DNA of 64,000 nt from Fodinibius halophilus (GTDB lineage: Bacteria; Bacteroidota; Rhodothermia; Balneolales; Balneolaceae): positions 62,001-126,000 of the forward strand of contig NZ_JAALLS010000004.1 in NCBI RefSeq assembly GCF_011059105.1, given 5' to 3'. The notes below the pieces were generated by a model. That model was not told the DNA's origin, searched no databases, and saw nothing but the letters and a program-made list of their open reading frames with translations. The translations under genes were made by a program, and so were the position numbers. Positions 1,176-17,368 of the stretch are shown here, in pieces; within the stretch, counting starts at the first letter, position 1, and each line of letters begins with the position of its first letter.

Positions 1176-4031
1176 TTACGTTTTTACTTTCTGTTTCTCT
1201 TCCCGTTCAAACTCTTCTTGCAGATACTGCCCGGTATAACTTTCTTCTACCTTGGCGACATCCTCCGGCGCTCCTTGTGTCAGGATCTCTCCACCTTCTA
1301 CGCCCCCTTCCGGACCGAGATCGATGATCCAGTCAGCTGCCTTAATGAGGTCAAGATTATGCTCAATAACAATAACGGTATTGCCTTTATCTACGAGCTG
1401 CTGAACCACATCAACAAGCATACGTACATCCTGGAAATGCAAGCCGGTAGTAGGCTCATCCAGGATATAAAGCGTATCGCCGGTACCTACTTTAGCAAGC
1501 TCTCGTGCCAGCTTAATACGCTGTGCTTCTCCACCGGATAGTGTCGTACTTGGCTGACCAAGACGGAGATAGCCCAAACCTACATCAACAAGTGTTCCCA
1601 GTATGCGATTAATAGCCGGCACCGAATCAAAGAATTCGTGGGCTTCATTAATCGACATATTCAATACATCAGATATATTTTTCTCTTTGTAATAGATCTC
1701 CAGCGTTTCCCTATTGTACCGGGCACCCTTACACGTCTCACAATCCACATAGACATCAGGCAGGAAGTTCATCTCAATTTTGCGAACTCCATCTCCATTA
1801 CAGGCTTCACATCTACCGCCTTTTACATTAAAGGAAAAACGCCCCTGGTCGTACCCCCGAATCTTTGATTCGGGCAGTTCAGCAAACAACTTACGGATAT
1901 GATCAAACACCTTGGTATACGTTCCGGGATTAGATCGCGGCGTACGCCCAATCGGGCTTTGATCCACCGAAATGATCTTATCCAGATTGTCGATACCATG
2001 CACCTCATCGTATGGAAGGGGGACTGATTTTGAATTATAAAACTCAGAAGACAAAATAGGCTCCAGCGTCTGGTTAATGAGTGAGCTTTTACCACTCCCG
2101 CTAACACCGGTTACACAGATAAACTTACCCAGCGGTATCTCAACATCCAGGTTTTTGAGGTTATGTCCCCGTGCATTTTCGAGACGTACCGATTTACCAT
2201 TACCTTCTCGGCGTTCATCAGGATAGGGAACGACCTCTTCATCCTTCAAGAACTTGGCAGTCATTGAATCGGGATCAAGATCCTCGGGTTTGCCCTCTGT
2301 AACGATTTCTCCGCCATACTCTCCGGCTCCCGGTCCCAGGTCAAGCACATAGTCTGCAGCCTCAATTGTTTCTCGATCGTGCTCTACAACTATTACGCTG
2401 TTCCCCAGATCCCGCAAAGTCTGAAGTGATTTTATCAGCTTCACATTATCCCGCTGATGCAAACCGATACTGGGTTCATCCAGGATATACAGCACGCCCA
2501 CCAGCTGGGTTCCTATCTGGGTTGCCAGGCGTATGCGCTGTGCCTCGCCCCCACTTAGGGTTTGGGCTTCACGATCAAGCGTTAAATAGTTAAGACCAAC
2601 ATTCAGCAGAAAGTCGACACGGTCGCGTACTTCTTTGAGTACCTGGCTGCCAATTTTTTGCTGTCGCTCATTCAACTCCAGGTTATTAATCGTATTCCGG
2701 AGCGTCGTAATATCCATATTCACCAGCTCATCAATGGTATAATCGTCGATACGATAAGAGAGAGCTTCCTTGTTCAATCGACCGCCACCACAATCCGGGC
2801 AATCGATACGGGCCATATATGCTTTGGCTTTATCGCGCTTTTTATTCGACTTACTCTCCTCGTACTGCTCGCGAATCATATTTCGCAGTCCTTTGAAGGA
2901 GTGTTTATAGGTCACATTGTCTTGACGAAAATCATAACTTACATCATACTTCTTATCGCCTCCGCCTTCAAAGAGCAGATCAATAGCCCCATCCGGAAAT
3001 TCTTTGATAGGAGTTTCAAAATCAAGATCCATCGTATCCAGAACTGCTTGCAACTGCTTAAAGGCAAAGATATCACGCGGTTCTCCCAAAAACCGAATAG
3101 CACCATCTTCAATAGTCTGCTCTTTATTGGGAATAACCAGGTCGCGGTCCACATCATAGGAATACCCTAAGCCATCGCAGTTTTGGCAGGCGCCATAGGG
3201 TGAGTTAAAGGAAAAAATATTGGGAGCCGGATCTTCGTAGGCCAATCCACTTTCGGGATCGAACAGATTTTGCGAGTACAGGTGATCTTTAAAAACAACA
3301 TCACCGTCCTCTTCTTTCGGTACTGATAATATCACATTTCCTTCGGCCATCTCAAGAGCCAATCGCACGCTCTCTGCAATACGCTTTTCACTCTTTTCAT
3401 TAATCACAAACCGGTCGACAACTACCTCAATATTGTGCCTTTTATACCGGTCTACCTTCATATCCTCTTCCAGGTCCATCAGCTCGCCATCTACGCGAAC
3501 CTGCACAAAACCCTGCTTCATCGTCTGTTCAAAAAGTTCGCGATAATGTCCTTTTCGGCCACGTACAACCGGTGCTAAACAATATGCTTTTGTGCCCTCG
3601 GGCATATCCATGATGGTTGACACAACTTGATCAGCCGTCTGTTTCTCCATTTTGTTCCCCGATTTCCAGGAATACGGCACCCCTATGCGTGCATATAACA
3701 AGCGCAAAAAGTCGTAAATTTCTGTTACTGTACCTACCGTGGAACGGGGATTTCGATTGGTCGTCTTTTGATCAATTGATATTACGGGAGATAAACCATC
3801 AATAAAATCTACCTCGGGACGCTCCATCATTCCTAAAAACTGACGGGCATAGGCCGACAGAGATTCCAAAAAACGACGTTGTCCTTCGGCATAAATGGTA
3901 TCGAAAGCCAACGAAGACTTTCCCGATCCCGAAATACCGGTCACCACAACAAGCTGCTCCCGGGGAATATTAACATCAATATTTTTGAGATTGTGTTCGC
4001 GCGCGCCGCGGATGACTATATTTTCTCGCAA
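1176..4031 (-). CDS. uvrA: UvrABC excinuclease subunit A
   Basis: UvrA is the damage-sensing ATPase of nucleotide excision repair; it loads UvrB at lesions. At 951 residues it is full length. The first ATPase half has Walker A GISGSGKS (32-39), and the second half has GVSGSGKS near residue 640. Both carry LSGGEAQRI signatures and ILDEP Walker B motifs. The C-terminal zinc module is intact (CEAC near 741, CETC near 764). The first zinc module keeps only its second half (CQNC); the segment just before it has no Cys pair. The only usable start in this frame is TTG at 4031, because a TAA stop lies five codons upstream. It is transcribed toward kbl, 205 bp away. Confidence 0.97.
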
Positions 4032-4169
4032 AGTACGTCCATATTTTTAGATTTAATTAAACTGTAAAAAATACGAATAAATCGTATCTTTTGAAGCTTT
4101 ATTTCCCGATAAATTTACTCACCCGGAAACACCGCTTATAACTGTAACTCTCTCATGTAATTCGTCTGG

Positions 4170-4823
4170 ATGAAGGATCTGTCCATTGATCTCGTCGAAC
4201 TCTTTAAATTTAGCACAAAACAATACGGCAAGTATACCTCTTTTATTATAGGAGCCATGCTTACCTTTCTTGTACTCGGTGTAATCCCGAGAATACACTT
4301 TATGTTGCGTGCTCCCCAACAGCCAACAACAGAATCTCAATTTATCTCTTTAATTATTACCCTCGCACAAGTATTCCTGAGCCTGGGATTCATCAAAATT
4401 ATGTTACAACTGGCACAGGATAAGTATGTAGAGGTAGTTGATATGTTCAACAACTTTAGAACATTCTTAAGCTATTTTGTTGCCAGCTTCCTCTATGGTA
4501 TTGCCGTTATATTAGGTCTATTTCTCTTAGTAGTACCCGGCATCTATATTTACGTTCGCTTTCAATTCTACCCTTATATTATCATCGAAGAAGAGGTCTC
4601 AGCCTTCACTGCACTAAAAAAAAGCTTTTTTTTGTCACAAAGCCTCACCTTAGAACTCTTTTTACTGCAACTGGTAGTCATCACCCTTAACCTCTTGGGT
4701 ATACTACTCTTCGGAGTGGGTATTGTTATAACCTATCCACTCACCACAATGGCAACAGCTATAGCATACAAAAGTATCACACAAGATAGTGACCACATAC
4801 CTTCAACGGCTTATAAGGTATAA
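4170..4823 (+). CDS. Integral membrane protein, four or more TM helices, function unknown
   Basis: This 217-residue protein has hydrophobic stretches at about 25-45, 60-85, 105-140 and 165-200. The motif VVPGIYIYVRFQFYPYII followed by an acidic stretch and FTALKKSF resembles the DUF975 / glycerophosphodiester-phosphodiesterase membrane-domain style of protein (YciC-like), in which an amphipathic 'AL..S..L' helix follows a pair of TM helices. I cannot assign a reaction. It diverges from uvrA across 138 bp and is followed 81 bp later by the WG-repeat lipoprotein, which may be co-transcribed. Start is ATG 4170; no upstream start competes. Confidence 0.7.
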   Translation: MKDLSIDLVELFKFSTKQYGKYTSFIIGAMLTFLVLGVIPRIHFMLRAPQQPTTESQFISLIITLAQVFLSLGFIKIMLQLAQDKYVEVVDMFNNFRTFLSYFVASFLYGIAVILGLFLLVVPGIYIYVRFQFYPYIIIEEEVSAFTALKKSFFLSQSLTLELFLLQLVVITLNLLGILLFGVGIVITYPLTTMATAIAYKSITQDSDHIPSTAYKV

Positions 4824-4904
4824 TTGTGGAAACATTTGTGTCCTGTTTCCATTAAAAGCAAAACAAACATATAACTCTACAAAAAGATCAGCACAACTAC
4901 TCTC

Positions 4905-5945
4905 ATGCGTAATTCATTCTTCAATGGCTTTATAGTACTAGTACTACTATTAGTCTCTTGTAAAACAATTAATTCACCTACTACAAAAACATCATTATAT
5001 CCATATGTCGAAGATAACCAGGTTGGCTTTCTGGATACAAATCTAACCCGCCAAATATCTGCCCAATTTAGTTTTCTAAATAACAGGTTATGGCCCTATC
5101 AATTCTCTGAGGGATTGGCCGCAGTCAATTTTTTGGGTACCGTAGGATATATTGACAGTAACGGTAACATTGCAATTGAACCTCAATTCGACTACGGCAA
5201 ACCATTTAAAAACGGAATTGCCCTGGTACAAGAAGGGGGGCACTTTGGCTTTATCAATCGATCAGGCAATTATATCATTAAGCCAAAATTCTATAATGCC
5301 TACTCTTTTAGTGAGGGACTTGCTGCAGTTCAAAAACGGAGAAACGGGAATTGGGGATATATCACTTCTGATGGAGATCACCCTATCCCATTACAGTTTA
5401 ATGCTGCAAAAAGTTTTAGCGAAGGACTGGCACTTGTACAAACATCTACTCACAATGAGTGGGGATATATTAATAAAGAAGGTGAAACGGTTATCGAACC
5501 GACCTATGACCAAGCTAAATCTTTTTCTGAAGGCCTGGCCCCGGTACAACTCAATTACAAACAGTGGGGATACATCAATAGGAATGGCGCTGTTATCATT
5601 GCCTCTAAATACCTAGAAGCGGAACCGTTTTCTGAAGGTAAAGCTGCGGTTGCCATGCCCCAAGACAAAAACAACCTTGACAAAAAGAAGTATGGTTTTA
5701 TTAATAAGCGTGGAGAGTTCATCATCGAACCCCGTTTTGATAAAGCGTTTAGCTTTCGTGATGGTGTTGCCCGTATTAAGGTGGATAATAAATTTGGCTT
5801 TGTTGATGCCCAAGGCAACATGATAGCTGAACCCATTTACGACCACGCCTGGAACTTTCAATCCGGTATGGCTATGGTTAAACTGGGAAATAAATATGGA
5901 TATATTAACAAACAGGGAATATTTGTACTAGAACCTTTAAGCTAA
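4905..5945 (+). CDS. WG-repeat lipoprotein
   Basis: This 346-residue protein has a lipoprotein signal ending LVLLLVSC (lipid Cys at 19), so it should be membrane-anchored outside the cytoplasm. The rest is a run of about nine WG repeats: each has a WGYI/FGFI core followed by 'G..II.P.YD.A..FSEGLA.V'. WG repeats form beta-rich, probably ligand- or protein-binding arrays, with no enzymatic residues expected. It lies between a membrane protein and DAHP synthase, with no clear functional link to either. Repeat spacing is about 30-45 residues and shows no frameshift. The binding partner is unknown. Confidence 0.88.
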   Translation: MRNSFFNGFIVLVLLLVSCKTINSPTTKTSLYPYVEDNQVGFLDTNLTRQISAQFSFLNNRLWPYQFSEGLAAVNFLGTVGYIDSNGNIAIEPQFDYGKPFKNGIALVQEGGHFGFINRSGNYIIKPKFYNAYSFSEGLAAVQKRRNGNWGYITSDGDHPIPLQFNAAKSFSEGLALVQTSTHNEWGYINKEGETVIEPTYDQAKSFSEGLAPVQLNYKQWGYINRNGAVIIASKYLEAEPFSEGKAAVAMPQDKNNLDKKKYGFINKRGEFIIEPRFDKAFSFRDGVARIKVDNKFGFVDAQGNMIAEPIYDHAWNFQSGMAMVKLGNKYGYINKQGIFVLEPLS

Positions 5946-6076
5946 CCTCTCTTATATAGATATAAAAGCTACCAAAAAAAGTAATTAACAAACTATAACC
6001 CCTTTTCAATTGCTCCTATGCGCATATTTCGGTATCCTTAGGGGTTTATTAGAATGTACCTAGAATAATACTTGCA

Positions 6077-7459
6077 ATGTACTCCAAAAAAACTGTGGCT
6101 CCCGAAGTAGCAAATCCAAACGATTGGTCTCCGCTTTCCTGGAAAGATTATCCGGTTAAACAGCTTCCAACCTATCCCAACCAAGAAGAATTGGAGGAGG
6201 TATATAATCAATTACGCGATAATCCCCCACTAATCACTTCCTGGGAAGTTGAAGCCCTAAAAAAACGCCTTGCTGATGTATCAGCCGGAAAAGGCTTTTT
6301 ATTGCAAGGTGGGGACTGTGCCGAAAGTTTTGCGGACTGTAAATCTCCAAAGATTGTAAACCTGCTTAAGGTTTTAATGCAGATGAGTTTTATCCTGATC
6401 CATGAGATGGAAACATCTGTTATACGCGTGGGCCGTATTGCCGGACAGTATGCCAAGCCACGTTCTAGCGACTATGAGATCGTTGACGGAGAAAAGATCC
6501 CTAATTATCGCGGTGATCTTATTAACAGTATTACGCCCGAACTTGAACAGCGTATTCCCGACCCCGAACGATTACTAACGGGATATAACAAAGCTTCGCT
6601 CACCCTTAACTTCTTGCGAGCGCTCTCCAACGAAGGATTTGCTGACTTGCATCACCCTGAATATTGGGAGCTCGATTTTATGCAGGAAAATGAGTACTAC
6701 AAGGAGTATGAAGCGATGGTCAACTCCATCCAGAAAGCCGTAAACTTTATGGAGACCATTACTCCTAACCAGTTTAATACGCTCCAAAAAATTGATGTAT
6801 ATACCTCCCACGAGGGACTTAATCTCTGGTACGATTCTGCACAGACCCAGCGCGTACCGCGTCGCCAGGGCTGGTATAACCTGAGTGCCCATATGGTATG
6901 GTTAGGTAACAGAACACGCGACCTCGACGGAGCCCACGTAGAATACCTGCGTGGTATCCGAAACCCCATTGGTATTAAAATGGGCCCTAACTATGATATG
7001 GATCATACGCTCAAACTTATCGAGCGGCTGAATCCTATACACGAACAGGGTAAGATTGTACTCATTACTCGTTTTGGTGAAGATCAGGTTGAAGAAGGGT
7101 TGCCGGATCTGATTAAACAGATAAAACATGAAGGGATGCCCGTTGTGTGGAGTTGTGACCCTATGCACGGAAATACCTTTGCTACTGATGATAATATCAA
7201 GACGCGTAATTTTGATGCTATCATTTCTGAAATACGAAAAACCTTTGCTATCCACCGCGATCAGGGCAGTTATCTCGGAGGCGTTCATCTTGAACTTACC
7301 GGCGATAACGTTACTGAATGCGTAGGTGGAGCTAAAGGCCTGCATGAGGGAGAACTTCATGAAAACTACGAAACCTACTGTGATCCCCGCTTGAATTACC
7401 AGCAGAGCCTGGAGTTAGCTTTTCTTATTGCCAAAGAATGGAACGAAAGCTATAAGTAA
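6077..7459 (+). CDS. 3-deoxy-7-phosphoheptulonate synthase, class II (plant-type DAHP synthase)
   Basis: The enzyme condenses phosphoenolpyruvate and erythrose 4-phosphate to DAHP, the first step of the shikimate pathway. At 460 residues it has the usual class II length. Class II marks are abundant: LLQGGDCAESF near 76, RVGRIAGQYAKPRS (115-128), RTRDLDGAHVEYLRGIRNP, VVWSCDPMHGN and GVHLELTGDNVTECVGG near the C-terminus. These supply the metal and phosphate ligands (Cys of GGDC, His of MHGN, Glu of ELTG). Start is ATG 6077 (MYSKKTVAPEV). It appears monocistronic; no other aro gene is nearby, and a 13-bp inverted repeat follows the stop. Confidence 0.96.
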   Translation: MYSKKTVAPEVANPNDWSPLSWKDYPVKQLPTYPNQEELEEVYNQLRDNPPLITSWEVEALKKRLADVSAGKGFLLQGGDCAESFADCKSPKIVNLLKVLMQMSFILIHEMETSVIRVGRIAGQYAKPRSSDYEIVDGEKIPNYRGDLINSITPELEQRIPDPERLLTGYNKASLTLNFLRALSNEGFADLHHPEYWELDFMQENEYYKEYEAMVNSIQKAVNFMETITPNQFNTLQKIDVYTSHEGLNLWYDSAQTQRVPRRQGWYNLSAHMVWLGNRTRDLDGAHVEYLRGIRNPIGIKMGPNYDMDHTLKLIERLNPIHEQGKIVLITRFGEDQVEEGLPDLIKQIKHEGMPVVWSCDPMHGNTFATDDNIKTRNFDAIISEIRKTFAIHRDQGSYLGGVHLELTGDNVTECVGGAKGLHEGELHENYETYCDPRLNYQQSLELAFLIAKEWNESYK

Positions 7460-7472
7460 TATACTGGTTAGT

Positions 7473-7512
7473 GGTTAATAGTTATTGGTGCATATACTGA
7501 TAACTATTAACC
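7473..7512. repeat. 13-bp perfect inverted repeat after DAHP synthase
   Basis: GGTTAATAGTTAT (7473-7485) and its exact complement ATAACTATTAACC (7500-7512) surround a 14-base spacer, starting 13 bp after the stop codon. No T-tract follows, so it is not a classic intrinsic terminator; it may stabilise the mRNA 3' end. Confidence 0.6.
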
Positions 7513-7667
7513 CATTATCCGGTTACCTACCCTCCTGTCACAAATACAGCTCCCCTGTCGGTTTGACTAAATGGGCTGTGACATTTTTTTCACCCTTCTC
7601 TCACAAGCCTGTAAAAAACGCAGACCTGCATTGGCTGAATGTCATAATTTGTACCTCTATATCCTGT

Positions 7668-7683
7668 TGGCATAGGTATTGCT
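7668..7683 (+). promoter_or_regulatory. Sigma54-type (-24/-12) promoter sequence upstream of hsp20
   Basis: TGGCATAGGTATTGCT has the invariant GG (7669-7670) and GC (7681-7682) with exactly 10 bases between them, as required for RpoN promoters; consensus TGGCACG-N4-TTGCW differs at two non-invariant bases. Predicted transcription start is about 7694, giving a roughly 50-base leader to the hsp20 ATG at 7744. The match is seen in sequence; use by RpoN is inferred. Confidence 0.55.
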
Positions 7684-7743
7684 CCCTTAAAAGTGAATTT
7701 GATTCAACCAACATCGAATAAAAATAATTACGAGGTACCAATT

Positions 7744-8172
7744 ATGACACTTATGAAATATACACGACCAGGTAGCAATGCGATGTCGAAGCAGTTTTCT
7801 GATATCATGGACGAATTTTTCAACGACGCTGTGAATTCACGGCGTAATTCGTTCGTTCCCAGCATTGATATCTCTGAAACTGAAGAAGACTTTCAGATTA
7901 CTGCAGAGCTTCCGGGAATGGAAAAAGATGATATTGCTGTCAACTTAGAAAACAGCCGTCTTTCTATAAGCGGTGAACGCAGTTTTGAGAAAGAAGAAAC
8001 CGGTAAGAAATTTCACCGGGTAGAATCTAAGTATGGTTCTTTTGAACGCTCTTTCCAATTACCCGACAATGTTGATGAGGACAGTATTTCAGCAACATAT
8101 GACAACGGATTGTTAAATATCTCTATCCAAAAGAGTGAACAAGAAGTAACTAAGAAAATTGAAATCAGCTAA
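7744..8172 (+). CDS. Small heat-shock protein, Hsp20/alpha-crystallin family
   Basis: This 142-residue ATP-independent holdase should bind unfolding proteins in the cytosol and pass them to DnaK/ClpB. The frame runs further upstream, but the start is set at ATG 7744 (MTLMKYTRPGSN) because ACGAGG lies about ten bases ahead and the family N-terminus fits. The alpha-crystallin domain spans about 40-140, with FQITAELPGMEKDDIAVNLEN, the A-x-Y-x-N-G-L motif (ATYDNGLLNI) and a short C-terminal tail with an I-x-I-like segment. It heads a chaperone/protease cluster (htrA, dnaJ-like) and has a sigma54-type sequence in front and a strong terminator behind, so it is probably monocistronic. Confidence 0.95.
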   Translation: MTLMKYTRPGSNAMSKQFSDIMDEFFNDAVNSRRNSFVPSIDISETEEDFQITAELPGMEKDDIAVNLENSRLSISGERSFEKEETGKKFHRVESKYGSFERSFQLPDNVDEDSISATYDNGLLNISIQKSEQEVTKKIEIS

Positions 8173-8201
8173 CACTACGCTGATCTGACAATCCCCAACA
8201 T

Positions 8202-8238
8202 GCGGGAGTACCCGTGAACAGGTGCTCCCGCTTCTTTT
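8202..8238 (+). terminator. Rho-independent terminator of hsp20
   Basis: GCGGGAGTACC (8202-8212) pairs with GGTGCTCCCGC (8221-8231), an 11-bp stem with one G-U pair and an 8-base loop, followed by TTCTTTTTT. It lies 30 bp after the hsp20 stop. Confidence 0.9.
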
Positions 8239-8334
8239 TTATTAATACTGCACAATAATCTTTGGTTCCCAGTTGTTTATTGAACTGTCAGAATGTAAAA
8301 ATTATTAATCCTGTATTATAAAACGGAGTTCATT

Positions 8335-9828
8335 ATGAAACGATCTCGTTCAACTTATGCACTTTGGGCAATAGCCGCCGTATTAGTAATCGGCTTTTAT
8401 TCGATTGATCTACAACCTAATCAAGCCTCTATCTTTTCGTTTCCGGATTTCCCGGGCAATGATAACGCCGAAAAAGTAAAAAATGAGTCCGCACCTTCAC
8501 TGCAAGAATTTAATGATGCTATTGTTGACGTCGCCGAAGAAGCAAAATCAACGGTAGTTACGGTCAGCGTTACCCAAACGGTACAAGCTCGCCCTAATCC
8601 CCTTAGCCGCTTTTTTGGGGATCCCCGAGAGCAGCAACCCAAACGCTACGAAAGAGAAGGACAAGGTTCCGGGGTTATTGTATCTCAAGATGGATATATA
8701 CTCACCAATAATCATGTAGTTGAAAAAGCAGATGAAGTAGAAGTACAACTATATAACGATAAAGTCTACAAAGCCAAGGTGGTGGGTACCGACCCCCGAA
8801 CTGATATTGCTGTTTTGAAGGTAGATGCTGAAAACCTTGATGTTATCAAGCTCGGCAACAGTGAAAAAGCCCGCGTTGGCGAGATGGTACTGGCAATTGG
8901 AAGTCCCCTAAGCAATGGCCTCGCCCACTCTGTTTCTATGGGTATAATTTCTGCCAAAGATCGTAGCATTGGGATCATTGAAAAAGGTGCCGGTTATGAG
9001 AACTTTATCCAAACGGATGCTGCTATTAACCCAGGGAACTCAGGGGGCGCACTCGTTAACATGAATGGAGAGTTAATTGGCGTTAACACCGCTATTGCTT
9101 CCCGCTCTGGTGGAAGTGATGGAATCGGTTTTGCGGTGCCGGTGGATATTGCAAAGCGCGTTATGAAATCAATTATCGAAAAAGGTAAAGTAGTTCGCGG
9201 CTACCTGGGTATTACTACCGGGGGCGAAGTTGACGACACCATGGCACGAGCTTTAGGACTAGACAAATCGTATGGAATAATTGTAGGTGCGGTAGAAAAA
9301 GACGGTCCTGCTGACAAAGCCGGCCTTAAAGAAGATGATATTATCCAGACCATTAATAGCAAACCTGTGCGAAACTGGAATTCTTTCCGCACCGCTATTG
9401 CCACCTCTTCGCCAGGCACAAAGGTCAAACTAGGTATTGTACGCAATGAGGAAAAAATGACTCTCACTGTAACGCTTGGTGAACTCCCGCAAGATTTAAT
9501 GGCTGATAACAATCAAGACCGACCTAATGTAAATCTAGAAAAGCAGTTAGGTTTTAGTGTGACTGACTTGACCCCTGAAATAGCGCAAGAACTAGGAGTT
9601 AGCAGTAACCAGGATGGCGTTGTCGTTACTCAAATTTCACGCCGTAGTGATGCTTATCAGCAAGGGCTAAGACGAGGGTTTATAATTACTGAGGTTAATA
9701 AAAAACCCGTAGAAAACCTCTCTGAATTTAATGAAGCGATGAACAGGCTTATGGAACAAAAGAAGGATATTGTCTTGCTCCGTGTTAAAACACAAAATGC
9801 CAGTCAACTTATCGCCTTCGAGTTATAA
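8335..9828 (+). CDS. degP: HtrA/DegP-family serine protease with two PDZ domains
   Basis: This envelope protease/chaperone degrades misfolded periplasmic proteins. Its 497 residues hold an N-terminal signal/anchor (6-27), a trypsin-like domain with triad H127 (NNHVV), D157 (TDIAVLKV) and S236 (GNSGGAL), PDZ1 at about 285-380 and PDZ2 at about 400-490. Length and domain order match DegP/MucD. Start is ATG 8335 with CGGAG seven bases upstream. It follows hsp20 as a separate transcript and ends at its own terminator. A second, decayed copy covering only residues about 260 onward is at 13201-13895, on the far side of the ABC/peptide cassette. Confidence 0.97.
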   Translation: MKRSRSTYALWAIAAVLVIGFYSIDLQPNQASIFSFPDFPGNDNAEKVKNESAPSLQEFNDAIVDVAEEAKSTVVTVSVTQTVQARPNPLSRFFGDPREQQPKRYEREGQGSGVIVSQDGYILTNNHVVEKADEVEVQLYNDKVYKAKVVGTDPRTDIAVLKVDAENLDVIKLGNSEKARVGEMVLAIGSPLSNGLAHSVSMGIISAKDRSIGIIEKGAGYENFIQTDAAINPGNSGGALVNMNGELIGVNTAIASRSGGSDGIGFAVPVDIAKRVMKSIIEKGKVVRGYLGITTGGEVDDTMARALGLDKSYGIIVGAVEKDGPADKAGLKEDDIIQTINSKPVRNWNSFRTAIATSSPGTKVKLGIVRNEEKMTLTVTLGELPQDLMADNNQDRPNVNLEKQLGFSVTDLTPEIAQELGVSSNQDGVVVTQISRRSDAYQQGLRRGFIITEVNKKPVENLSEFNEAMNRLMEQKKDIVLLRVKTQNASQLIAFEL

Positions 9829-9857
9829 GCTATCAACTAAAATTCTCACAATTTGAA

Positions 9858-9888
9858 GCCCTCTGGTTAATTTCAGAGGGCTTTTTTT
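9858..9888 (+). terminator. Rho-independent terminator of htrA
   Basis: GCCCTCTG (9858-9865) pairs with CAGAGGGC (9874-9881) around an 8-base loop, then seven T. Its 3' arm and T-tract are the first part of the 29-bp direct repeat found again at 13941-13969. Confidence 0.92.
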
Positions 9889-9904
9889 ATGACAAGCTGA
9901 CGAA
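9876..9904 (+). repeat. Direct repeat, left copy (terminator arm + ATGACAAGCTGACGAA)
   Basis: These 29 bases recur without mismatch at 13941-13969. They cover the 3' arm and T-tract of the htrA terminator and a further 16 non-coding bases ending GACAAGCTGACGAA. Sequence on both outer sides differs between the copies, so the identity starts and stops sharply, like a recombination or attachment core. Between the copies lie the ABC/propeller/peptide cassette and the htrA fragment. Confidence 0.85.
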
Positions 9905-10056
9905 ATTAATTATTTTTATCATGTACCTGATATTATATTGGAAAATAGCCGAAAAATGATAAAACTATTTGAAATAATGTTTTAGAGAAAAGAGCACATA
10001 TATATCATACAATAGTTAGTGACGAGAGTTTCTATCGATGTGCTAAATGAATAGTT

Positions 10057-10863
10057 TCAATCATGAAAATTTTTTTTGTTAATAATTCCTAAATCAACTA
10101 TTAGAGCAATTATACTCACAGAAAGGAAATTCAAAATTTTAAAACTTGATATTGTAAATTGCTGATAAATGATGACTTCCTTAATTTTTTGCAGCATTAC
10201 CGTCACTTTTGGAAAAAGATGATAATTTAAATCCAAAAATTTATACCAAACATTATTCTCAATCAAAGGATAAAGGAGTTTAACCCTAACTTCCAAAAAC
10301 ATAGGCAGAATTAGTAATATAGTTAGAGAAGAAATGATAGCAACTAAAGTACTATCTGCAAGTAAACCTACAAGCAAAATGAATGGAACTATCAATACGG
10401 CAACAATTATATTTGTAAAAAAGGCGTAAAAGTATACTAATGGTATAAAACTGAAATTGATTAAAAGTTGAATAAAAAAAGCTGACCAAAATAACGTTAT
10501 CAATAAAGCAAATATGCTAAACATACCTAGATATTGATTGAAGAAAATTTGAGCTCTACTTATAGGCTTAACACAAAAGAAATCCATAAATGGGGTACTG
10601 TAAAAAATATGTGAGTGGGATGATGTTATGAAGATACCCAATAATAAAACAATCGATATATATATCATGAAACTATCACCGTATCCAGTAACTGTCGATG
10701 GCCTACCCAAATATTTAACATCTAAAATTACTCTTTTAGAAAACTCAAAATTGTAGCTATACAATAGAAACCATCCTAAGAATAGTGATATGATTATACT
10801 TAGGTAGAGTAGTTTAGATTTAGATAATTTCCTTAAATAAATTCTTACTGGTGTTAGTCTCAT
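10057..10863 (-). CDS. ABC-2 type transporter permease
   Basis: This 268-residue integral membrane protein has about six hydrophobic segments (20-40, 68-85, 110-135, 145-170, 172-195, 240-260), matching the size of an ABC-2 exporter permease. It follows the ATPase gene with two bases between stop and start, so the two are almost certainly translated together and form one exporter. The operon continues from a propeller lipoprotein and a Cys-containing secreted peptide, so a role in exporting or giving immunity to that peptide is possible but inferred. The gene is visibly A+T-rich compared with htrA and dnaJ outside the cassette. It ends 152 bp from the htrA-side direct repeat. Confidence 0.82.
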   Translation of the reverse strand: MRLTPVRIYLRKLSKSKLLYLSIIISLFLGWFLLYSYNFEFSKRVILDVKYLGRPSTVTGYGDSFMIYISIVLLLGIFITSSHSHIFYSTPFMDFFCVKPISRAQIFFNQYLGMFSIFALLITLFWSAFFIQLLINFSFIPLVYFYAFFTNIIVAVLIVPFILLVGLLADSTLVAIISSLTILLILPMFLEVRVKLLYPLIENNVWYKFLDLNYHLFPKVTVMLQKIKEVIIYQQFTISSFKILNFLSVSIIALIVDLGIINKKNFHD

Positions 10864-10865
10864 TT

Positions 10866-11759
10866 TCAGTTTAAATATTTTATAACTTCTTTTTCTAGAT
10901 CAAATTGTTTTTTTTCGATTGAGATAATACTAATATTGTTTTGGTCTAGTATGCGCAATGCCTCATTGATACTCTCAGTGCTTACATTAAGATAGTGATA
11001 GGCTTCATTAGAACCCACCGTCAAAAACAGGTTGTTCTCGGGTATAGATTCATCGGACGCAATTGTGATTTGGTGTAAGACCTCTTTCTTTTTTAGATCA
11101 TTAATATCGTAAGTCTTTGAGATACTACCCTGATCTAAAATACCCACTTTATCGCAAATCATTTCCACTTCACCTAGTAAATGAGAATTAATTAGAATCG
11201 TTTTACCATTCTTTTTTGTATTCTTTAGAATTTTTCGGACTGCGTCTTTTGCCATTGGATCTAGGCCATCAGTAGGTTCGTCCAGAATTAATAAATCTGG
11301 ATCATTACAGAAAGCGTGTATCAGTAATAGTTTTTGTTTAGTACCTTTCGAGTATTTGGAAATCCTTTTGTCAACATAGCTTTCAAAGTTCAATAAATGT
11401 ATTAATTCTGAAACTTTCGTGTTGCTACTTAAAGAATCTATATTACCCATATCTTTTAAAAATTGATGCCCTTTCAGAAAGCCAAACGAATTAAACCTCT
11501 CCGGCAAATAACCAATTCTAGAATTTTTTACTGGATTTTTTGGGTTTTCCCCGAAGACTTTACAACTCCCTCCTTCAAATGATAGTAGCCCCAAAATAAT
11601 ACGAATAAAGGTAGTTTTACCAGCACCATTTCTTCCTAATAAGCCAAATGCTTCACCTGGTTTTATAGTCAGGTTGAGATTTTTTAAAACACTGTCAGTG
11701 CTGCTAAATAGTCTATTTTTATAAGATTTAGATATGTTCTTAGCTTTAATTATTTCCAT
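10866..11759 (-). CDS. ABC transporter ATP-binding protein
   Basis: This 297-residue nucleotide-binding subunit energises the adjacent permease. Start is set at ATG 11759 (MEIIKAKNIS), where beta-strand 1 of the ABC fold begins; this overlaps the propeller gene's end by 14 bases, suggesting translational coupling. Walker A is GRNGAGKT (42-49), the signature is a variant YSKGTKQ in place of LSGGQ, Walker B is LLILDEPTDGLD and the H-loop is NSHLLGE. The SKGTKQ signature is common in BcrA/NatA-type exporters that handle antibiotics, lantibiotics or ions. About 80 residues follow the ABC core, as in that class. Substrate is unknown. Confidence 0.93.
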   Translation of the reverse strand: MEIIKAKNISKSYKNRLFSSTDSVLKNLNLTIKPGEAFGLLGRNGAGKTTFIRIILGLLSFEGGSCKVFGENPKNPVKNSRIGYLPERFNSFGFLKGHQFLKDMGNIDSLSSNTKVSELIHLLNFESYVDKRISKYSKGTKQKLLLIHAFCNDPDLLILDEPTDGLDPMAKDAVRKILKNTKKNGKTILINSHLLGEVEMICDKVGILDQGSISKTYDINDLKKKEVLHQITIASDESIPENNLFLTVGSNEAYHYLNVSTESINEALRILDQNNISIISIEKKQFDLEKEVIKYLN

Positions 11760-12717
11760 ATCTTTTATTTTTTGAAATTTCCCAAATTTCAGATTCAAAA
11801 CCACCAGTTATGTAAAAGTTAGAGGAGCTACCGGATTCAATGATCCCAGAAGAAAGTTCTACATCTACTGAATAAAGATATGAATATGACAAATCAAACA
11901 AATAAATGTAGCTTTTAATATCAGAATAAATACCACCTTTAAGAAAAAGTATTTCTTCGTTAGTTGGATCAAATTCTACATTTTGGATAAACGTATTTTG
12001 TGGAGTGCCAATTGTTGATAGTTTAATTTCATTAGTTAGAAAAGGTAAATTAAAGGACTTCTTTAACCTACCAGCAGAGTCATAAATTTGAACTAGATTT
12101 TTATAGCGGTACGCAAATATAAGGTTATTATTGCCATCAACTGTTAGTGTTCCCGCATTTAATAAAGCCGTATCATCCGGATTAACTTGAAAAAACCTGT
12201 TCAATAATTCTTTGTTTAAGCTATAGGTTTCAAAAATAACGCCATTTGGTCTATAAAGCTGAACCACTAAATTTCTGTTATTATCAAATGAAACATCAAA
12301 AGGCCGCCCCTCCTTAACTAATATTTCTTTACATTCAGAAAAGTCCTCTCTAATTAAAATAATTTTATTGGCATCTAAATCAGGTATTGCCATCCAACCG
12401 TATCTCAAATCACCAAATAAAGGTTTGTCTAACTCACAAGGTCCTTTGCCCTTTTTGCCCCACTTCGACAAGAAATCTCCCTTCTTATTAAATTTTAATA
12501 CTTCTCGATTGGATTTATCTATTACAAAAATAAATTTATCGTTCGTTAATAGACCAGAACTTTTGAAGTATGAAGTTGAATCATTAGGACCTCTGATTAA
12601 AGTACTGTCAACAGATAAAATTTCTTCTGATGGAGCAGACCTATTTTTAGCACAACTATTGCACAAGAATACAAATAAAGCTGAAAAACCTAATATGTAT
12701 CTAAATTTTTTTTTCAT
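11746..12717 (-). CDS. 6-bladed beta-propeller lipoprotein
   Basis: This 323-residue protein has a lipoprotein signal (lipid Cys at 22 in FLCNSCAKN), so it should be tethered outside the inner membrane. The body shows repeated propeller strands: 'FVIDKSNREVLKFNKKGDFLSKWGKKGKGPCE', 'AIPDLDANKIIL', 'LTVDGNNNLIFAYRY' and 'VEFDPTNEEILFL'. This is the pattern of the 6-bladed propeller proteins (DUF4221/DUF5128-like) that in Bacteroidota sit beside short NVEALA-type peptides. Here too a Cys-rich secreted peptide is directly upstream, separated by a terminator. It overlaps the ABC ATPase start. A second propeller with a peptide neighbour is at 15818-16906. Its function in any organism is unclear to me. 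Confidence 0.8.
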   Translation of the reverse strand: MKKKFRYILGFSALFVFLCNSCAKNRSAPSEEILSVDSTLIRGPNDSTSYFKSSGLLTNDKFIFVIDKSNREVLKFNKKGDFLSKWGKKGKGPCELDKPLFGDLRYGWMAIPDLDANKIILIREDFSECKEILVKEGRPFDVSFDNNRNLVVQLYRPNGVIFETYSLNKELLNRFFQVNPDDTALLNAGTLTVDGNNNLIFAYRYKNLVQIYDSAGRLKKSFNLPFLTNEIKLSTIGTPQNTFIQNVEFDPTNEEILFLKGGIYSDIKSYIYLFDLSYSYLYSVDVELSSGIIESGSSSNFYITGGFESEIWEISKNKRYGNN

Positions 12718-12741
12718 GTTATTAAGGTATTCAACAATCTT

Positions 12742-12778
12742 TAAAAATAAAAAAGCTACAGCTTTAGAAGCCTGCAGC
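12742..12778 (-). terminator. Terminator/attenuator between peptide gene and propeller
   Basis: Read on the minus strand, GCTGCAG (12778-12772) pairs with CTGTAGC (12761-12755), with one G-U pair, and is followed by TTTTTTATTTTT. It lies after the peptide stop and before the propeller ATG, so most transcripts would end after the peptide, with read-through into propeller-ABC. Confidence 0.7.
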
Positions 12779-12805
12779 CTACAAATACAATTATGGCATT
12801 AAACT

Positions 12806-13123
12806 TTAACCAGTAATTTCATTCCAGTAATAAGCGATATCACAACCAGCACGGCACCCACTTCTCTGCGCACCGTCAAAGAATGTATCTCCAGTATAAT
12901 CCTCATTACATCCAGTGATACATTTATCTCTGGCCTTATCATTTTCTGATTCTTCCTTTTTTGCAAAAGCTGAAGATACGAGTGATATCGCAACACTGTA
13001 GAATTCTCCCTCATTTGCATCAGTTTCTGTTGTTTGATACTGTATATTGAAAGTTAAAGTTACAAATCCTAGTAATACAACTGGTATAACTATGATCTTA
13101 AGTAGTCCTTGTAAATTATTCAT
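12806..13123 (-). CDS. Small secreted peptide precursor with four cysteines (NVEALA-like)
   Basis: This 105-residue protein has an N-terminal hydrophobic helix (8-25) and a middle segment FYSVAISLVSSAFAKKEE. The C-terminal core holds CITGC and GCRAGC, four Cys that could form two disulfides. The layout (TM/leader, an 'AL..' or 'AFA' processing-like segment, then a Cys-rich tail) resembles NVEALA-family peptides of Bacteroidota. The similarity is by pattern only, not by alignment. It is the first gene of the minus-strand cassette, followed by a terminator, a propeller lipoprotein and an ABC exporter. Start is ATG 13123; the upstream region carries a TA-dinucleotide run and then the htrA fragment. 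It could be a signal, toxin or bacteriocin-like peptide; unproven. Confidence 0.65.
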   Translation of the reverse strand: MNNLQGLLKIIVIPVVLLGFVTLTFNIQYQTTETDANEGEFYSVAISLVSSAFAKKEESENDKARDKCITGCNEDYTGDTFFDGAQRSGCRAGCDIAYYWNEITG

Positions 13124-13200
13124 AACAATAATTTAATTAATGTTGGTTAAAGCGCTTGTTATTAACATATATATATATATTCTTTCCCAAATATTAATTC

Positions 13201-13895
13201 GGCAGTGACGGCATCGGCTTTGCCGTACCGGTTGATATTGCCAAACGCGTAATGAAATCAATTATCAAAAATGGGCGTGTAGTACGTGCTTATCTTGATA
13301 TTGCAGGACAGGACATTACCCCTACCCTGGCAAAAGCATTAGAGTTGGATAGCAACAGGGGCATTGTCGTAAACCAAGTAAATGAAGATACCCCCGCAAA
13401 AGAAGCCGGACTTCAAGAAGGCGATATTATCCAAAAGCTAAATGGGAAAGAAATATTAAATTATGGAAACTTTCATACAAACATTGCTACTTCGAGTCCC
13501 GGTGATAAGATACAGTTACATATTTTACGGGACGGTGAAACAAAAAAGATATCTGTTACTCTAGGGGAACTGCCCAATGAACTGACTATGGATGAACAGA
13601 CTACTACTGATAAAACAATGGAAAAACAGCTGGGTTTTCGTGTGCAAGATCTAGCACCTGAAATTGCACAACAGCTTAACTTGGACCAAGACCAAGAAGG
13701 GGTGGTTGTAAGTCAAATTTCACAACGAAGCGAAGCCTACCGGCAGGGCCTGCGTCAAGGACATGTTATTACCAGTGTTGGCAATCAATAGACTTTAATG
13801 ATGCCATCAATAATCTGTTAGAACAAGAAAAAGATGTAGGTTTACTTCGGGTTCTGACCGATGAAAATAACTGTTTAGTTGCCTTTGAGTTATGA
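13201..13895 (+). pseudogene. Decayed 3' fragment of a second htrA/degP gene
   Basis: The translation from GSDGIGFAVPVDIAKRVM onward matches residues about 260-497 of the intact HtrA at 8335-9828: the end of the protease domain, PDZ1 and PDZ2. All triad residues (H, D, S) are absent because the 5' half is missing, and homology begins abruptly at 13201. Near 13790 several codons are lost and the frame breaks: ...ITSVGNQ then TAG, after which DFNDAINNLLEQEKDV...LVAFEL continues in another frame to a TGA at 13893-13895. The DNA is similar but clearly diverged from the intact copy, so this is not a recent tandem duplicate. It is followed by its own terminator and the direct repeat. Confidence 0.92.
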
Positions 13896-13926
13896 GGTAG
13901 ATGATCACTATAGCTAGATACAGGAG

Positions 13927-13953
13927 GCTCTCCCACACAGGAGGGCTTTTTTT
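13927..13953 (+). terminator. Terminator after the htrA fragment
   Basis: GCTCTCC (13927-13933) pairs with GGAGGGC (13940-13946), one G-U pair, followed by seven T. The 5' arm differs from that of the intact htrA terminator, whereas the 3' arm onward is identical to it. Confidence 0.82.
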
Positions 13954-13969
13954 ATGACAAGCTGACGAA
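13941..13969 (+). repeat. Direct repeat, right copy
   Basis: Exact second copy of the 29 bases at 9876-9904. The two copies are in the same orientation, 4,065 bp apart. Recombination between them would leave intact htrA followed directly by the dnaJ promoter region. Confidence 0.85.
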
Positions 13970-14009
13970 CTACTGCTATTAACTTGACAATTCGTTAGCT
14001 TTTGGATTC

Positions 14010-14025
14010 TGGCACTTTATTTGCT
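14010..14025 (+). promoter_or_regulatory. Sigma54-type (-24/-12) promoter sequence upstream of the dnaJ-like gene
   Basis: TGGCACTTTATTTGCT matches the RpoN consensus TGGCACG-N4-TTGCW at every position but one, with GG (14011-14012) and GC (14023-14024) correctly spaced. Predicted start is about 14036, a 40-base leader to ATG 14076. It is the second such site in this chaperone region. Confidence 0.62.
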
Positions 14026-14075
14026 CTCTTATATAGTGAAATCTCGAAAAAGCTCTATGATGCCACAATAACATT

Positions 14076-15119
14076 ATGGAATACAAAAACTATTACGACA
14101 TACTGGGTGTTAGCAAAAATGCTTCTCAGGATGAGATAAAGAAGGCATACCGTAAGAAAGCGGCTAAATACCATCCGGATAAAAACCCCGATGACCCCTC
14201 TGCTGAGGACAAATTTAAAGAGCTTGGTGAGGCATACGAAGTATTGCAAGACCCTGAGAAACGCAAGTTGTATGACAAAGTCGGTAAAGACTGGAAAAAA
14301 TATCAGCGTGCCGGCGGTACTGCTGATGGCTTTGATTGGTCTGATTATGCTCGTCAAAGTCGCCGGAGCCGTGGCTACAGTAATGGGGGACAACAGTATC
14401 AAACCGGATTCGACATCAATGACCTCTTTGGCGGAGGCGGTGGTGGACGAAGCGGAGCCCAACAGGGACAAGGGCGCAGTTTTTCCAGCTTTTTCGAAAC
14501 TATTTTTGGCGGGGCAGGCGGTGCCAGCCCCTTTGGACAGCAAGCCCAAAGCCAACGCTCTCGCCGCTACCAAAGCAATGCCAGACAACAGGGCCGGCAA
14601 GCTACAGCCAAGAAGAATTTAAACGCCGAAGTTACCATCCCACTGAAACAAGCCTACAACGGAACTTCTCGAACAATCCGTGTGGGCGGCGAAAAAATGA
14701 AAGTTAAAATACCTGCCGGTATAGAAGATGGTCAGCGCCTCAAATTAAAAGGGAAAGGATCTACCAAAGCCCGCGGTGGTGCTCGCGGCGATCTTCTTTT
14801 GACCGTTCGTATTGATATGCCGGAAGGTTATGAACGCAAAGGGAATAACCTGTACTACGATCATCCCCTTGATCTTTATACGGCTGTGCTCGGAGGTGAT
14901 ACTGTGGTTGATACTATTGCAGGTAAAGCAAAACTAACAATCCCTGCAGGCACTTCAAGTGGTAAACTGTTTAGACTCAATGGCATGGGCATGCCCGAAT
15001 TCCGTAACTCTTCAAACAAAGGTGACTTGTTAGCCCGCATGCAGGTGCAAGTACCTGAGAACTTATCAAAAGAAGAAGAGAAACTGTTTAATAAGTTGGC
15101 AAAAGAAAGAGATAGTTAA
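14076..15119 (+). CDS. cbpA: CbpA-like DnaJ (J-domain co-chaperone without zinc finger)
   Basis: This 347-residue type II J-protein stimulates DnaK ATPase and delivers clients. The J-domain (1-70) has HPD at 33-35. A Gly/Phe-rich linker follows (about 95-170), then two C-terminal beta domains (about 180-340) with [20 protein letters not shown] and [17 protein letters not shown]. No CxxCxGxG zinc repeats exist, separating it from classical DnaJ. It has its own sigma54-type promoter sequence. Its surroundings are odd: a decayed htrA fragment on the left and a decayed DUF2784-like fragment on the right, whose stop codon overlaps the dnaJ stop by two bases. No chaperone modulator gene (cbpM) is visible. 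Confidence 0.93.
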
Positions 15120-15420
15120 GCAACAATTTCTTTCTTTTTAAAGTCCTTGAAATTCAGATAGAGTGAAATCAGCAGTACTAAAAAGAAACAACTGGCTGTT
15201 GTAAAATCTACTATCATAGCGCTTAGTTCTATCCCCGTTAATTGCTGAATCAAAAACTGAATATAGGAATTGGGCATATCAGTCTCCCCCAGTTTCTGAC
15301 GTACCTGCCAGTGCCAGTGTGTAGAGTGACAATAACCAAAGCCATGCTATAACCAGAGAAAGGTCATAGCCGGCAGCCTAATAAGCCCCCTTTCGGACCT
15401 TTCCCGTTAACCAATCAATG
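15116..15420 (-). pseudogene. Decayed copy of the DUF2784-like membrane protein gene
   Basis: Read on the minus strand, the frame GFGYCHSTHWHWQVRQKLG followed by ETDMPNSYIQFLIQQL aligns with GFGYCPCTHWHWQVRQKLG and YTDMPNSYIKFLIDEL of the intact gene at 17003-17368, and runs to a TAA at 15116-15118. Upstream of this, TAG stops and a short deletion break the frame (FLWL then stop), and only faint N-terminal similarity remains to about 15420. It is therefore a broken relic in the same orientation as the intact gene. Cassette B lies between the two. Confidence 0.85.
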
Positions 15421-15524
15421 GAATACTTAATGGTTTATAATTTGTACCTATTTAGTTTTTTCTTTAGAGTGAAAGTAAGCTTAATTATTTTGGGCTTATA
15501 ATAAATAACTAACCATCAAACATT

Positions 15525-15757
15525 ATGCTTAAAAAACTATTCTATCTTTGAGTATTCTTTTCGGAATATTAGTCTTGGGATCTCCTATTCTCAATTCTTA
15601 TGCAAATATTAACGCTAAGGATACAACTGAAAGTGTAAAATGTAACAGCTCTGGCTCTTGGTGGGTTAGCTGTGACTATGACCCGGGATCAAATACTGTT
15701 ACGATAAATTGTGACTACGGCGGAGAAGACCCCTGTGGAAAAGCGGAAGTAGAATAA
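15525..15757 (+). CDS. Small secreted Cys peptide, frame broken in a run of six A
   Basis: The open frame from 15548 has only a TTG start and encodes a hydrophobic segment ending SPILNSYA and a core with four Cys (VKCNSS, VSCDY, INCDYGG, DPCGK). The likely true start is ATG 15525, but in that frame the reading meets TGA at 15549-15551. If the A-run at 15531-15536 had seven A instead of six, the product would begin MLKKTILSLSILFGILVLGS, a textbook signal peptide, and read straight into the Cys core (about 77 residues). So this is either a sequencing indel, slippage-dependent expression, or a fresh mutation. A perfect 15-bp hairpin and then a propeller gene follow. Confidence 0.6.
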
Positions 15758-15767
15758 TGTAATAATA

Positions 15768-15802
15768 ATAGGAGTGCTTAATAAATAATTAAGCACTCCT
15801 AT
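15768..15802. other. Perfect 15-bp hairpin between peptide and propeller genes
   Basis: ATAGGAGTGCTTAAT (15768-15782) and ATTAAGCACTCCTAT (15788-15802) are exact complements around a 5-base loop. No T-tract follows on the plus strand, so it may act as an mRNA-stabilising or partial-termination element separating the peptide from the propeller, as the terminator does in cassette A. Confidence 0.75.
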
Positions 15803-15817
15803 TCCAAAAAAAATCTT

Positions 15818-16906
15818 ATGAACATTATTGAAAATTTAAGACCAAACCCTCTGTGTATTGCGTTCTTTCTTGCTCTTTTTTTAGTCACAAGCAACAATAA
15901 CGCTTTTAGTCAGTATGCCAAACAGAATCCATCAAAGGCTTTCAAGGATTTATTTGTCAAAAACAAAGAAATATTTATATCAATAGATGAAAATACGCTC
16001 TTAGACAGACCTGTTTCTATACTTCAAACAAAAAACGACCAGCTAATTTGGGGTGAAAAAGAAGGAATAAAAGTTTTTGACCAATCGGGAGCTCTTATAA
16101 AGAAAGTTGAACTATCAGGTCGTGGTCCCGGTGAATTAATTAGGGCTTCGCAATACAATCTAACTGAATCTAATATTACTATTCTAGATGCCTCACAACT
16201 AAAGGTTATAGTTCTAAACAATGATTGTGAATTCCAACACGAATTCTTGGTTGCAAAAAATAGAACCAAGTTACATGCTAAATCAAGCAAGGGTAACTAT
16301 TACACTTTAAATGAATTGATGTTAAACTCAGAGACCCCTGCACTTTCTAAATATGATAGTACAGGTACAAAAATTGCAGAATGGGGAATTGTTCCATTAA
16401 CTGCCAAAACACAAAGAGCAAATCAAAATGGAGGTGGTATTACGTCTGATGGTCGCGGTAACATTTACTATTCATACCAAGGTGATTTTCGGATCTGGAA
16501 GTTAAACACATCTGAAAATTCTATCAGTATATTTAAAAACAAGCCTTCATATTTCAAACCAATATCACAAAAAGAATTACAAACAACTCAAAGAGCAAGA
16601 AAACTTTTTTATCTGGGCTATAAGGGAACCAGACTTACGGGGCTTTTCTTTCTTAAACCGAACATTATACTACAACAATTTGAAACTGGAAACCCTTTTA
16701 ATAAGCCTAAAGAAGAATTAACCTACTATTTAGAAATTTGGAATACTAGTGGTGAAAAATTAGCCTCCAAAATCGAAATACCTTATCCCATCGCTTGGGT
16801 TGATCAGAACTCAATTACACTACCTACGATGTATCCCTCAAAAATTTTACAACAAAAAGGGGAAATTAAGGCATTTAAAACTTTCACCATACAAATTTCA
16901 AAGTAG
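15818..16906 (+). CDS. Secreted 6-bladed beta-propeller protein
   Basis: This 362-residue protein has a cleavable signal peptide (hydrophobic 12-25, probable cut at AFS-Q near 31). The pattern 'IKVFDQSGALIKKVELSGRGPGEL' followed by 'ITILDASQLKVIVLN' and 'ITSDGRGNIYYSYQGDFRIWKLN' is that of the 6-bladed propeller family seen next to NVEALA peptides; the GRGPGE motif matches GKGPCE in the cassette A propeller. There is no lipid Cys here. It lies 60 bp after the Cys peptide, with a hairpin between, and 96 bp before the convergent DUF2784-like gene. No ABC genes accompany this second module. Function unknown. Confidence 0.78.
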   Translation: MNIIENLRPNPLCIAFFLALFLVTSNNNAFSQYAKQNPSKAFKDLFVKNKEIFISIDENTLLDRPVSILQTKNDQLIWGEKEGIKVFDQSGALIKKVELSGRGPGELIRASQYNLTESNITILDASQLKVIVLNNDCEFQHEFLVAKNRTKLHAKSSKGNYYTLNELMLNSETPALSKYDSTGTKIAEWGIVPLTAKTQRANQNGGGITSDGRGNIYYSYQGDFRIWKLNTSENSISIFKNKPSYFKPISQKELQTTQRARKLFYLGYKGTRLTGLFFLKPNIILQQFETGNPFNKPKEELTYYLEIWNTSGEKLASKIEIPYPIAWVDQNSITLPTMYPSKILQQKGEIKAFKTFTIQISK

Positions 16907-17002
16907 AAAATATCCATATCGCCGCATCCGAACTAAGTTCCCCCAAAAACTTATCGGATATGTAAAGAGAGCCTTTAAGTGAACTTAGAGTGTCTACCTA
17001 AA

Positions 17003-17368
17003 TCAGCCTTCACCAACTTTCCAGTTTACATAAACTGAAACTACTAGAACAGCCACAAAAAGTATCCCGGTCCACATATCAACAACATTTGCTGATACCT
17101 TAATGCCTAGAAGCTCATCTATCAAAAATTTAATGTATGAATTAGGCATATCAGTATACCCCAGTTTTTGGCGCACCTGCCAGTGCCAATGGGTACACGG
17201 GCAGTACCCAAAACCATACCATATGCCAAGGCCAAACCAAGAAAAAGCTGTCAACAAGAGCGTTGCCAAATTCCATCGCCGTGTTTTCTTCCATATCCAC
17301 CCGAAGAGATTAAATAGGATGAACAGGGTATGGAAAATGATAAAACCGACATCCAAAAGAGTATACAT
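17003..17368 (-). CDS. DUF2784-like small membrane protein
   Basis: This 121-residue protein has about three to four TM helices (5-25, 33-50, 95-115) and the family-type motif GFGYCPCTHWHWQVRQKLG, reminiscent of the 'YCPLT.WE...R...G' signature of DUF2784. Function is unknown. Start is ATG 17368. A broken copy lies at 15116-15420 in the same direction, so cassette B appears to sit within a former duplication. It diverges from the S1/P1 nuclease gene across 87 bp. Confidence 0.75.
   Translation of the reverse strand: MYTLLDVGFIIFHTLFILFNLFGWIWKKTRRWNLATLLLTAFSWFGLGIWYGFGYCPCTHWHWQVRQKLGYTDMPNSYIKFLIDELLGIKVSANVVDMWTGILFVAVLVVSVYVNWKVGEG

Follow-up and report, generated by a model that had tools for sequence, protein, structure and literature searches.

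A four-gene cassette in the genome of Fodinibius halophilus (contig NZ_JAALLS010000004.1, positions 62,001 to 126,000, a 64,000-nucleotide (nt) stretch hereafter called the window) encodes a small cysteine-rich secreted peptide, a β-propeller lipoprotein, and the ATPase and permease of an ATP-binding cassette (ABC) transporter. The cassette is a recent horizontal import, and related cassettes are found throughout one bacterial phylum. We suggest that this acquired operon supplies a secreted peptide, a dedicated protein that binds it, and an ABC pump that clears it for self-protection, a reading to which we give a probability of about one half. The peptide family is absent from Pfam, NCBIfam, PHROGs, and PADLOC and was assembled in this analysis; literature searches returned no paper on the module.

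Organization of the cassette and its products

Positions are those of the whole window. The cassette lies on the minus strand, from 13123 to 10057, as four consecutive open reading frames (ORFs), all of which were already noted in the original prediction:

12806–13123, minus strand: secreted peptide of 105 amino acids (aa), with an NVEALA-like leader layout and the core CITGC-X17-CRAGC
about 12738–12780, minus strand: stem-loop followed by U6 in the peptide/propeller gap, a weak fold; candidate terminator or attenuator
11746–12717, minus strand: six-bladed β-propeller lipoprotein, 323 aa (PF17170)
10866–11759, minus strand: ABC ATPase, 297 aa counted from the ATG (PF00005; DrrA/GldA group)
10057–10863, minus strand: ABC permease of the ABC-2 type, 268 aa, assigned by gene context

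The ORF list gives the ATPase a GTG start at 11804; more probably it begins with the ATG at 11759. Counted from this ATG, the ATPase gene shares 14 nt with the end of the propeller gene, and 2 nt separate the ATPase stop from the permease start. By this layout the propeller, ATPase, and permease are translationally coupled; the original prediction had noted the overlap and the tightly coupled permease. It had also been proposed that a strong terminator follows the peptide gene. The stem and its U6 are there, but the fold (−13.4 kcal/mol, z −0.25) is no better than those of shuffled sequences, so that "strong" cannot be kept. The same gap carries a significant hairpin (z about −4) at three of five other loci tested (L059, L036, and L012). 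No lanthionine synthesis genes are present among the ORFs at 9829–14075, and against the anti-phage defence systems of PADLOC the operon shows no specific match, only generic ATPase similarity.

The peptide has the features first ascribed to it, a secretion leader and four cysteines (residues 68, 72, 90, and 94). Its leader is made up of a hydrophobic N-terminal segment, a polar spacer, and an AxA site; a signal peptidase I (SPI)-type site, SSAFA↓KKEE, is predicted, with cleavage after residue 54. Family alignments give the pattern C-x6-C-x3-C-x(n)-C-x3-C-x6-C. The window copy retains the inner four cysteines and lacks both C1 and C6. Beyond the four inner cysteines, the core has no invariant residue. 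AlphaFold2 models of six family sequences are helical hairpins with a predicted local distance difference test (pLDDT) score of 85–90 and a low-confidence leader; in the window peptide the helixes span 59–74 and 80–103 (model numbering begins at residue 2). Because the mirrored 7/4 and 4/7 spacing puts the six cysteines on facing sides of two antiparallel helixes, C1–C6, C2–C5, and C3–C4 disulfides would be expected, and the lack of both outer cysteines together in the window copy fits a C1–C6 pair. The core is thus predicted to be a symmetric, disulfide-stapled helical hairpin. Searches of the window peptide against Pfam, NCBIfam, PHROGs, and PADLOC gave nothing significant, the peptide profile A2 matched no PDB sequence at E ≤ 1, and Foldseek found no significant match to the peptide model.

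The propeller lipoprotein carries a lipobox-like motif, CNSC, and scores above the gathering cut-off of PF17170 (DUF5128; E 2.8e-5, 23.9 bits against 22.9); its profile, A4, finds NHL propellers among PDB entries. The ATPase matches PF00005 at E 2e-26, with Walker A motif GRNGAGKT and signature SKGTKQ. By sequence, it belongs to the DrrA/GldA/NosF group, and its closest stand-alone PDB matches include NosF (7o0y, 137 bits). In the original prediction SKGTKQ was read as the mark of a bacitracin- or lantibiotic-type exporter. That reading is not borne out: the signature is ordinary for DrrA/NosF/GldA-type ATPases and no pointer to bacitracin or lantibiotics, and the ATPase falls well below the cut-off of the lantibiotic-protection model TIGR03740 (147.4 against 309.75 bits). 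It is likewise below the cut-offs of the PmtA and PmtC models (103.5 and 108.9 bits; cut-offs 350 and 375). The permease has no Pfam or NCBIfam match. In the PDB its profile, A3, matches PmtD only, over the full length and weakly (E 0.016), and its AlphaFold model is poor (pLDDT 41).

Conservation, selection and import

The peptide alone was searched within the taxonomic family of the window genome, and rebuilt profiles were used beyond it. The peptide-only search turned up relatives in further genera, their genes immediately preceding those for a propeller lipoprotein and an ABC ATPase, and the rebuilt profiles added loci from one more family within the class and from a different class of the phylum. 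The family numbers 22 loci in 20 genomes; its records include Balneolaceae bacterium MES10, Rhodothermia bacterium 7_bin.32, UBA2664, and LH_M91. A propeller gene lies 3′ of the peptide gene in all 22 loci (in G625a it was counted from the ORF list), and an ABC ATPase lies downstream in 17 of the 18 loci having enough downstream sequence. The window genome itself holds a second complete copy (L059, on G000:C23), with the peptide at 7695–7910 followed by propeller, ATPase, and permease. A permease-seeded search independently found G103, whose operon begins with a CX3C…CX3C peptide. The original prediction was to be given up if the peptide proved absent from all other propeller–ABC loci; it is clearly conserved at such loci. 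The peptide is under purifying selection, with ω of 0.11–0.36 in orthologue comparisons, and this, with the recurring gene order, upholds the claim that the genes form one unit.

Several candidates were set aside. Peptide-search matches in G005, G352, G356, G031, G032, and G173:C1 are spurious, as they lack a propeller, lie inside other genes, or are antisense. Distant permease matches in G018, G019, G071, G074, G091:C54, and G000:C23 (169623) seem to belong to a different ABC pair, with no propeller in the neighbourhoods read; several of these neighbourhoods carry an XRE-type regulator in the propeller's stead. G009, G012, G013, and G017 were placed with this group by score only, and G015 and G096 hold other ABC pairs. 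Two loci are irregular. In G064 the reading frame of the peptide gene (L034, 5669–5872) is broken at a T10 tract, either a sequencing error or phase variation. G062 (L155, 687–2509) has the ABC ATPase and permease, a propeller remnant, and no peptide; it is either a decayed module or an orphan transporter.

Rates of change set the peptide and propeller apart from the ATPase. Within family f6, nonsynonymous divergences (dN) of peptide and propeller are close to equal (0.117/0.125, 0.246/0.258, and 0.270/0.276), and those of the ATPase are lower (0.06–0.09). Over 15 loci, peptide and propeller distances are correlated when the ATPase is controlled for (partial r 0.36, permutation p 0.0004); for peptide and ATPase, with the propeller controlled for, p is 0.09. 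The correlations are modest evidence for what may be a direct peptide–propeller relation.

The import is read from an empty site in the closest relative, G014, from exact repeats at its ends, and from base composition. The relevant features are as follows:

9905–13969: imported segment holding the cassette, 4,065 bp
9876–9904, plus strand: left 29-bp direct repeat, GAGGGCTTTTTTTATGACAAGCTGACGAA, the degQ terminator tail
13941–13969, plus strand: right 29-bp direct repeat, identical to the left
13201–13897, plus strand: 3′ fragment of another, diverged degQ brought in with the import (58% identical to host degQ at the aa level)
8335–9828, plus strand: intact host degQ, neighbour of the cassette

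In G014, window positions 1–9904 form one unbroken stretch, and the sequence resumes there with window positions 13941–15345, with a 29-bp overlap. The guanine-plus-cytosine content of the insert is 27–35%, against 40–47% in the flanks. The cassette lies downstream of degQ and antiparallel to it. No integrase or transposase is found inside the 4,065-bp insert, and flanking gene fragments such as that of degQ are no general feature of the cassette family.

A second insert, also absent from G014, lies between 15345 and 17121:

15548–15757, plus strand: second Cys-rich peptide, 69 aa, with another core
15818–16906, plus strand: second six-bladed propeller (PF17170, E 1.1e-8), partner of the 15548 peptide, with no ABC genes

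These two genes are antiparallel to an intact DUF2784 gene (17003–17368), a diverged 3′ fragment of which lies at 15116–15277. Both inserts, the second taken as 15116–17368, follow one plan: an intact host gene, an antiparallel cassette, and a diverged fragment from the 3′ end of that gene. Elsewhere, the window holds a very long ORF of 3099 aa (43669–52968).

Proposed function of the peptide and its partners

The four-gene cassette belongs to a larger set. The window genome has 27 PF17170 propellers, which with the L059 propeller make 28; an adjoining upstream small ORF with at least four cysteines was the criterion for a partner. Such an ORF lies directly upstream of 13 of the 28 propellers; among other genes, the figure is 8 of 87 (Fisher p 4.6e-5). 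Therefore, the cassette is the ABC-linked form of a wider peptide–propeller repertoire. The leaders of the genome's peptides are of two types, secretory and GG-type (MSFMKTLSRDEMKNVKAG), and genes near the pairs include AraC-like regulators, a MauE gene, and a C39-VKOR and Thioredoxin_4 pair. GG-leader Cys-rich peptides (MSFMKTLSRDEMKNVKAG...) stand beside propellers at L114 (G000:C45), L116, and L119, possibly undescribed exported peptide clusters; L114 adds AraC-like regulators, a C39-VKOR fusion, and a thioredoxin. The model TIGR04149 (GG_sam_targ_CFB) gave no match above its cut-off. In the other class of the phylum, ABC-type operons often hold a CxxC protein and MauE, the latter recognized by Pfam or by sequence in G132, G193, and others. 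In G193 (L064, 5688–10415) the MauE gene occurs twice in almost the same form; one copy precedes an operon with a six-Cys peptide and the other a Cys-rich peptide of a different kind, which links the two peptide types. Such redox partners fit disulfide-bonded exported peptides. MauE is absent from the window operon, from the Balneolaceae loci, and from the f6 loci.

We propose the following scheme. The small peptide would be exported to the periplasm by Sec and would fold there as two antiparallel helixes, held in the window copy by two ladder-like disulfides, C2–C5 joining C68 to C94 and C3–C4 joining C72 to C90, to which most relatives would add C1–C6. The propeller lipoprotein would share the peptide's transcript, be produced in smaller amounts, and bind the peptide. 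The ABC-2-type ATPase/permease pair would use ATP to drive the peptide, whether free or membrane-inserted, off the inner membrane. The whole would amount to a bioactive secreted peptide encoded with its own binding and self-protection proteins, in the manner of LanI/LanFEG or Pmt. Use in peptide signalling or in toxin/immunity, at which the original prediction hinted, is plausible.

Several points weigh against this proposal. Binding by the propeller, transport by the ABC pair, and biological activity all enter it as suppositions. Since the peptides carry a Sec signal, the ABC pair is not needed for export across the inner membrane; there is no dedicated outer-membrane exit, and no known family of toxins or bacteriocins is close to the peptides. 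The parts of the cassette are also separable: G611, the sequence of which contains unresolved bases, is the sole locus of the 18 without an ABC gene downstream, and in G062 the ABC genes stand with a propeller remnant and no peptide.

Two alternatives are serious rivals, though each seems unlikely. In one, the cassette is an assembly module and the peptide a small, disulfide-rich structural subunit of a propeller envelope protein, in the way that MauA goes with the MauB propeller; MauE and CxxC proteins would form its disulfides, and maturation would be driven by a NosFY-like ABC pair. The MauE and CxxC partners in most loci of the other class, the similar rates of peptide and propeller evolution, the usual count of one peptide per propeller, and the NosF match of the ATPase all agree with such a role. 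It is hard to square with the operons themselves, which lack a cytochrome or enzyme subunit and, in the window, Balneolaceae, and f6 loci, MauE as well. Moreover, only the four inner cysteines are invariant in the peptide core, and because no other residue is, a cofactor such as tryptophan tryptophylquinone would not be expected. The other rival, to be doubted to a like degree, makes the peptide a pheromone for cell–cell signalling, the propeller its envelope receptor, and a small AraC-like protein the controller of transcription. Ahead of the peptide in each of the six non-window Balneolaceae loci for which upstream sequence exists, there is indeed a gene for a short AraC-like helix-turn-helix protein, and G103 has one upstream too; many parallel peptide–propeller pairs in one genome would also suit signalling. 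However, the window cassette, its second copy L059, and the f6 loci have no regulator, and the AraC proteins are short, without a visible sensor domain, and come with no transmembrane signalling part.

Metal handling, with Cu(I) or a like ion bound by the Cys-lined hairpin and accepted by the propeller, and the ABC pair serving in a NosDFY-like metal or sulfur route, is considerably less probable. CXXXC motifs on helixes occur in Csp-type copper proteins, and the ATPase is NosF-like, yet the symmetric C1–C6 pairing fits disulfides, the partners in sister loci are of oxidase type (MauE, VKOR, and thioredoxin), and no metal genes lie nearby. Chance adjacency, with a spurious ORF beside a propeller–ABC operon, has only the short length of the peptide to commend it; it is refuted by the same gene order in 22 loci, and purifying selection and the second genomic copy also stand against it.

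Returning to the secreted peptide with its binding protein and clearance pump, we offer a broader and more tentative extension, which we hold to be rather less probable than the proposal itself: stapled-hairpin peptides, cognate propellers, and ABC pumps may form an undescribed mobile system of antagonism or communication, and six-bladed propellers may be the phylum's general partners of Cys-rich secreted peptides, as receptors or immunity proteins, with a dozen or so pairs in one genome. The abundant PF17170 propellers gain a testable partner, the Cys-rich small peptide encoded directly upstream. With its four genes, the cassette is a minimal unit for transfer to a laboratory strain, and it brings transport and disulfide chemistry to bear on the question that NVEALA-like peptides pose.

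Comparison with known systems

The NosDFY system resembles the cassette in combining an envelope protein, a NosF-like ATPase, and a permease of about 270 aa; it differs in that NosD is a β-helix where the cassette has a propeller, and the cassette has no nos genes. MauABDE, for methylamine dehydrogenase, shares a small Cys-rich subunit and a propeller, and has MauE and a thioredoxin-like partner as do the sister loci. However, the peptide has no catalytic Trp pair, mau has no ABC genes, and the window operon has no MauE.

NVEALA peptides (PF14055) are likewise small, Cys-rich, secreted, and encoded beside six-bladed propellers. The resemblance first proposed holds for the leader layout of the window peptide and the adjacent PF17170 propeller; membership does not follow, as the window peptide has no PF14055 match at E ≤ 1 and the genome none over the cut-off. 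The cysteine spacing is different, the cassette has a helical-hairpin core and an ABC pair, and in most relatives the leader is a plain signal peptide.

The 4C motif of plant α-hairpinins is CX3CX4-20CX3C (PMC11591084). The window core, CX3C-X17-CX3C, formally fits it and is modelled as a helix-loop-helix (pLDDT 85–90) with predicted disulfides. The one group is from plants and the other bacterial, and relatives of the window peptide add an outer Cys pair at x6. Homology finds no support from A2 in the PDB (E ≤ 1) or from significant fold matches; the vicilin leader 7uv1 is among the Foldseek results, insignificantly (E 5.9).

The staphylococcal Pmt exporter of phenol-soluble modulins is approached by the weak match of the permease profile to PmtD. 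Unlike Pmt, the cassette has a single ABC pair, an ATPase below the PmtA/PmtC cut-offs, and a peptide with a Sec signal. Immunity to nisin joins a lipoprotein to an ABC transporter (PMC4828448). The cassette departs from LanI/LanFEG in having no modification enzymes, in its Sec leader, propeller lipoprotein, and Gram-negative envelope, and in an ATPase below the TIGR03740 cut-off. What the two have in common is the plan of peptide, lipoprotein, and ABC transporter within one cluster.

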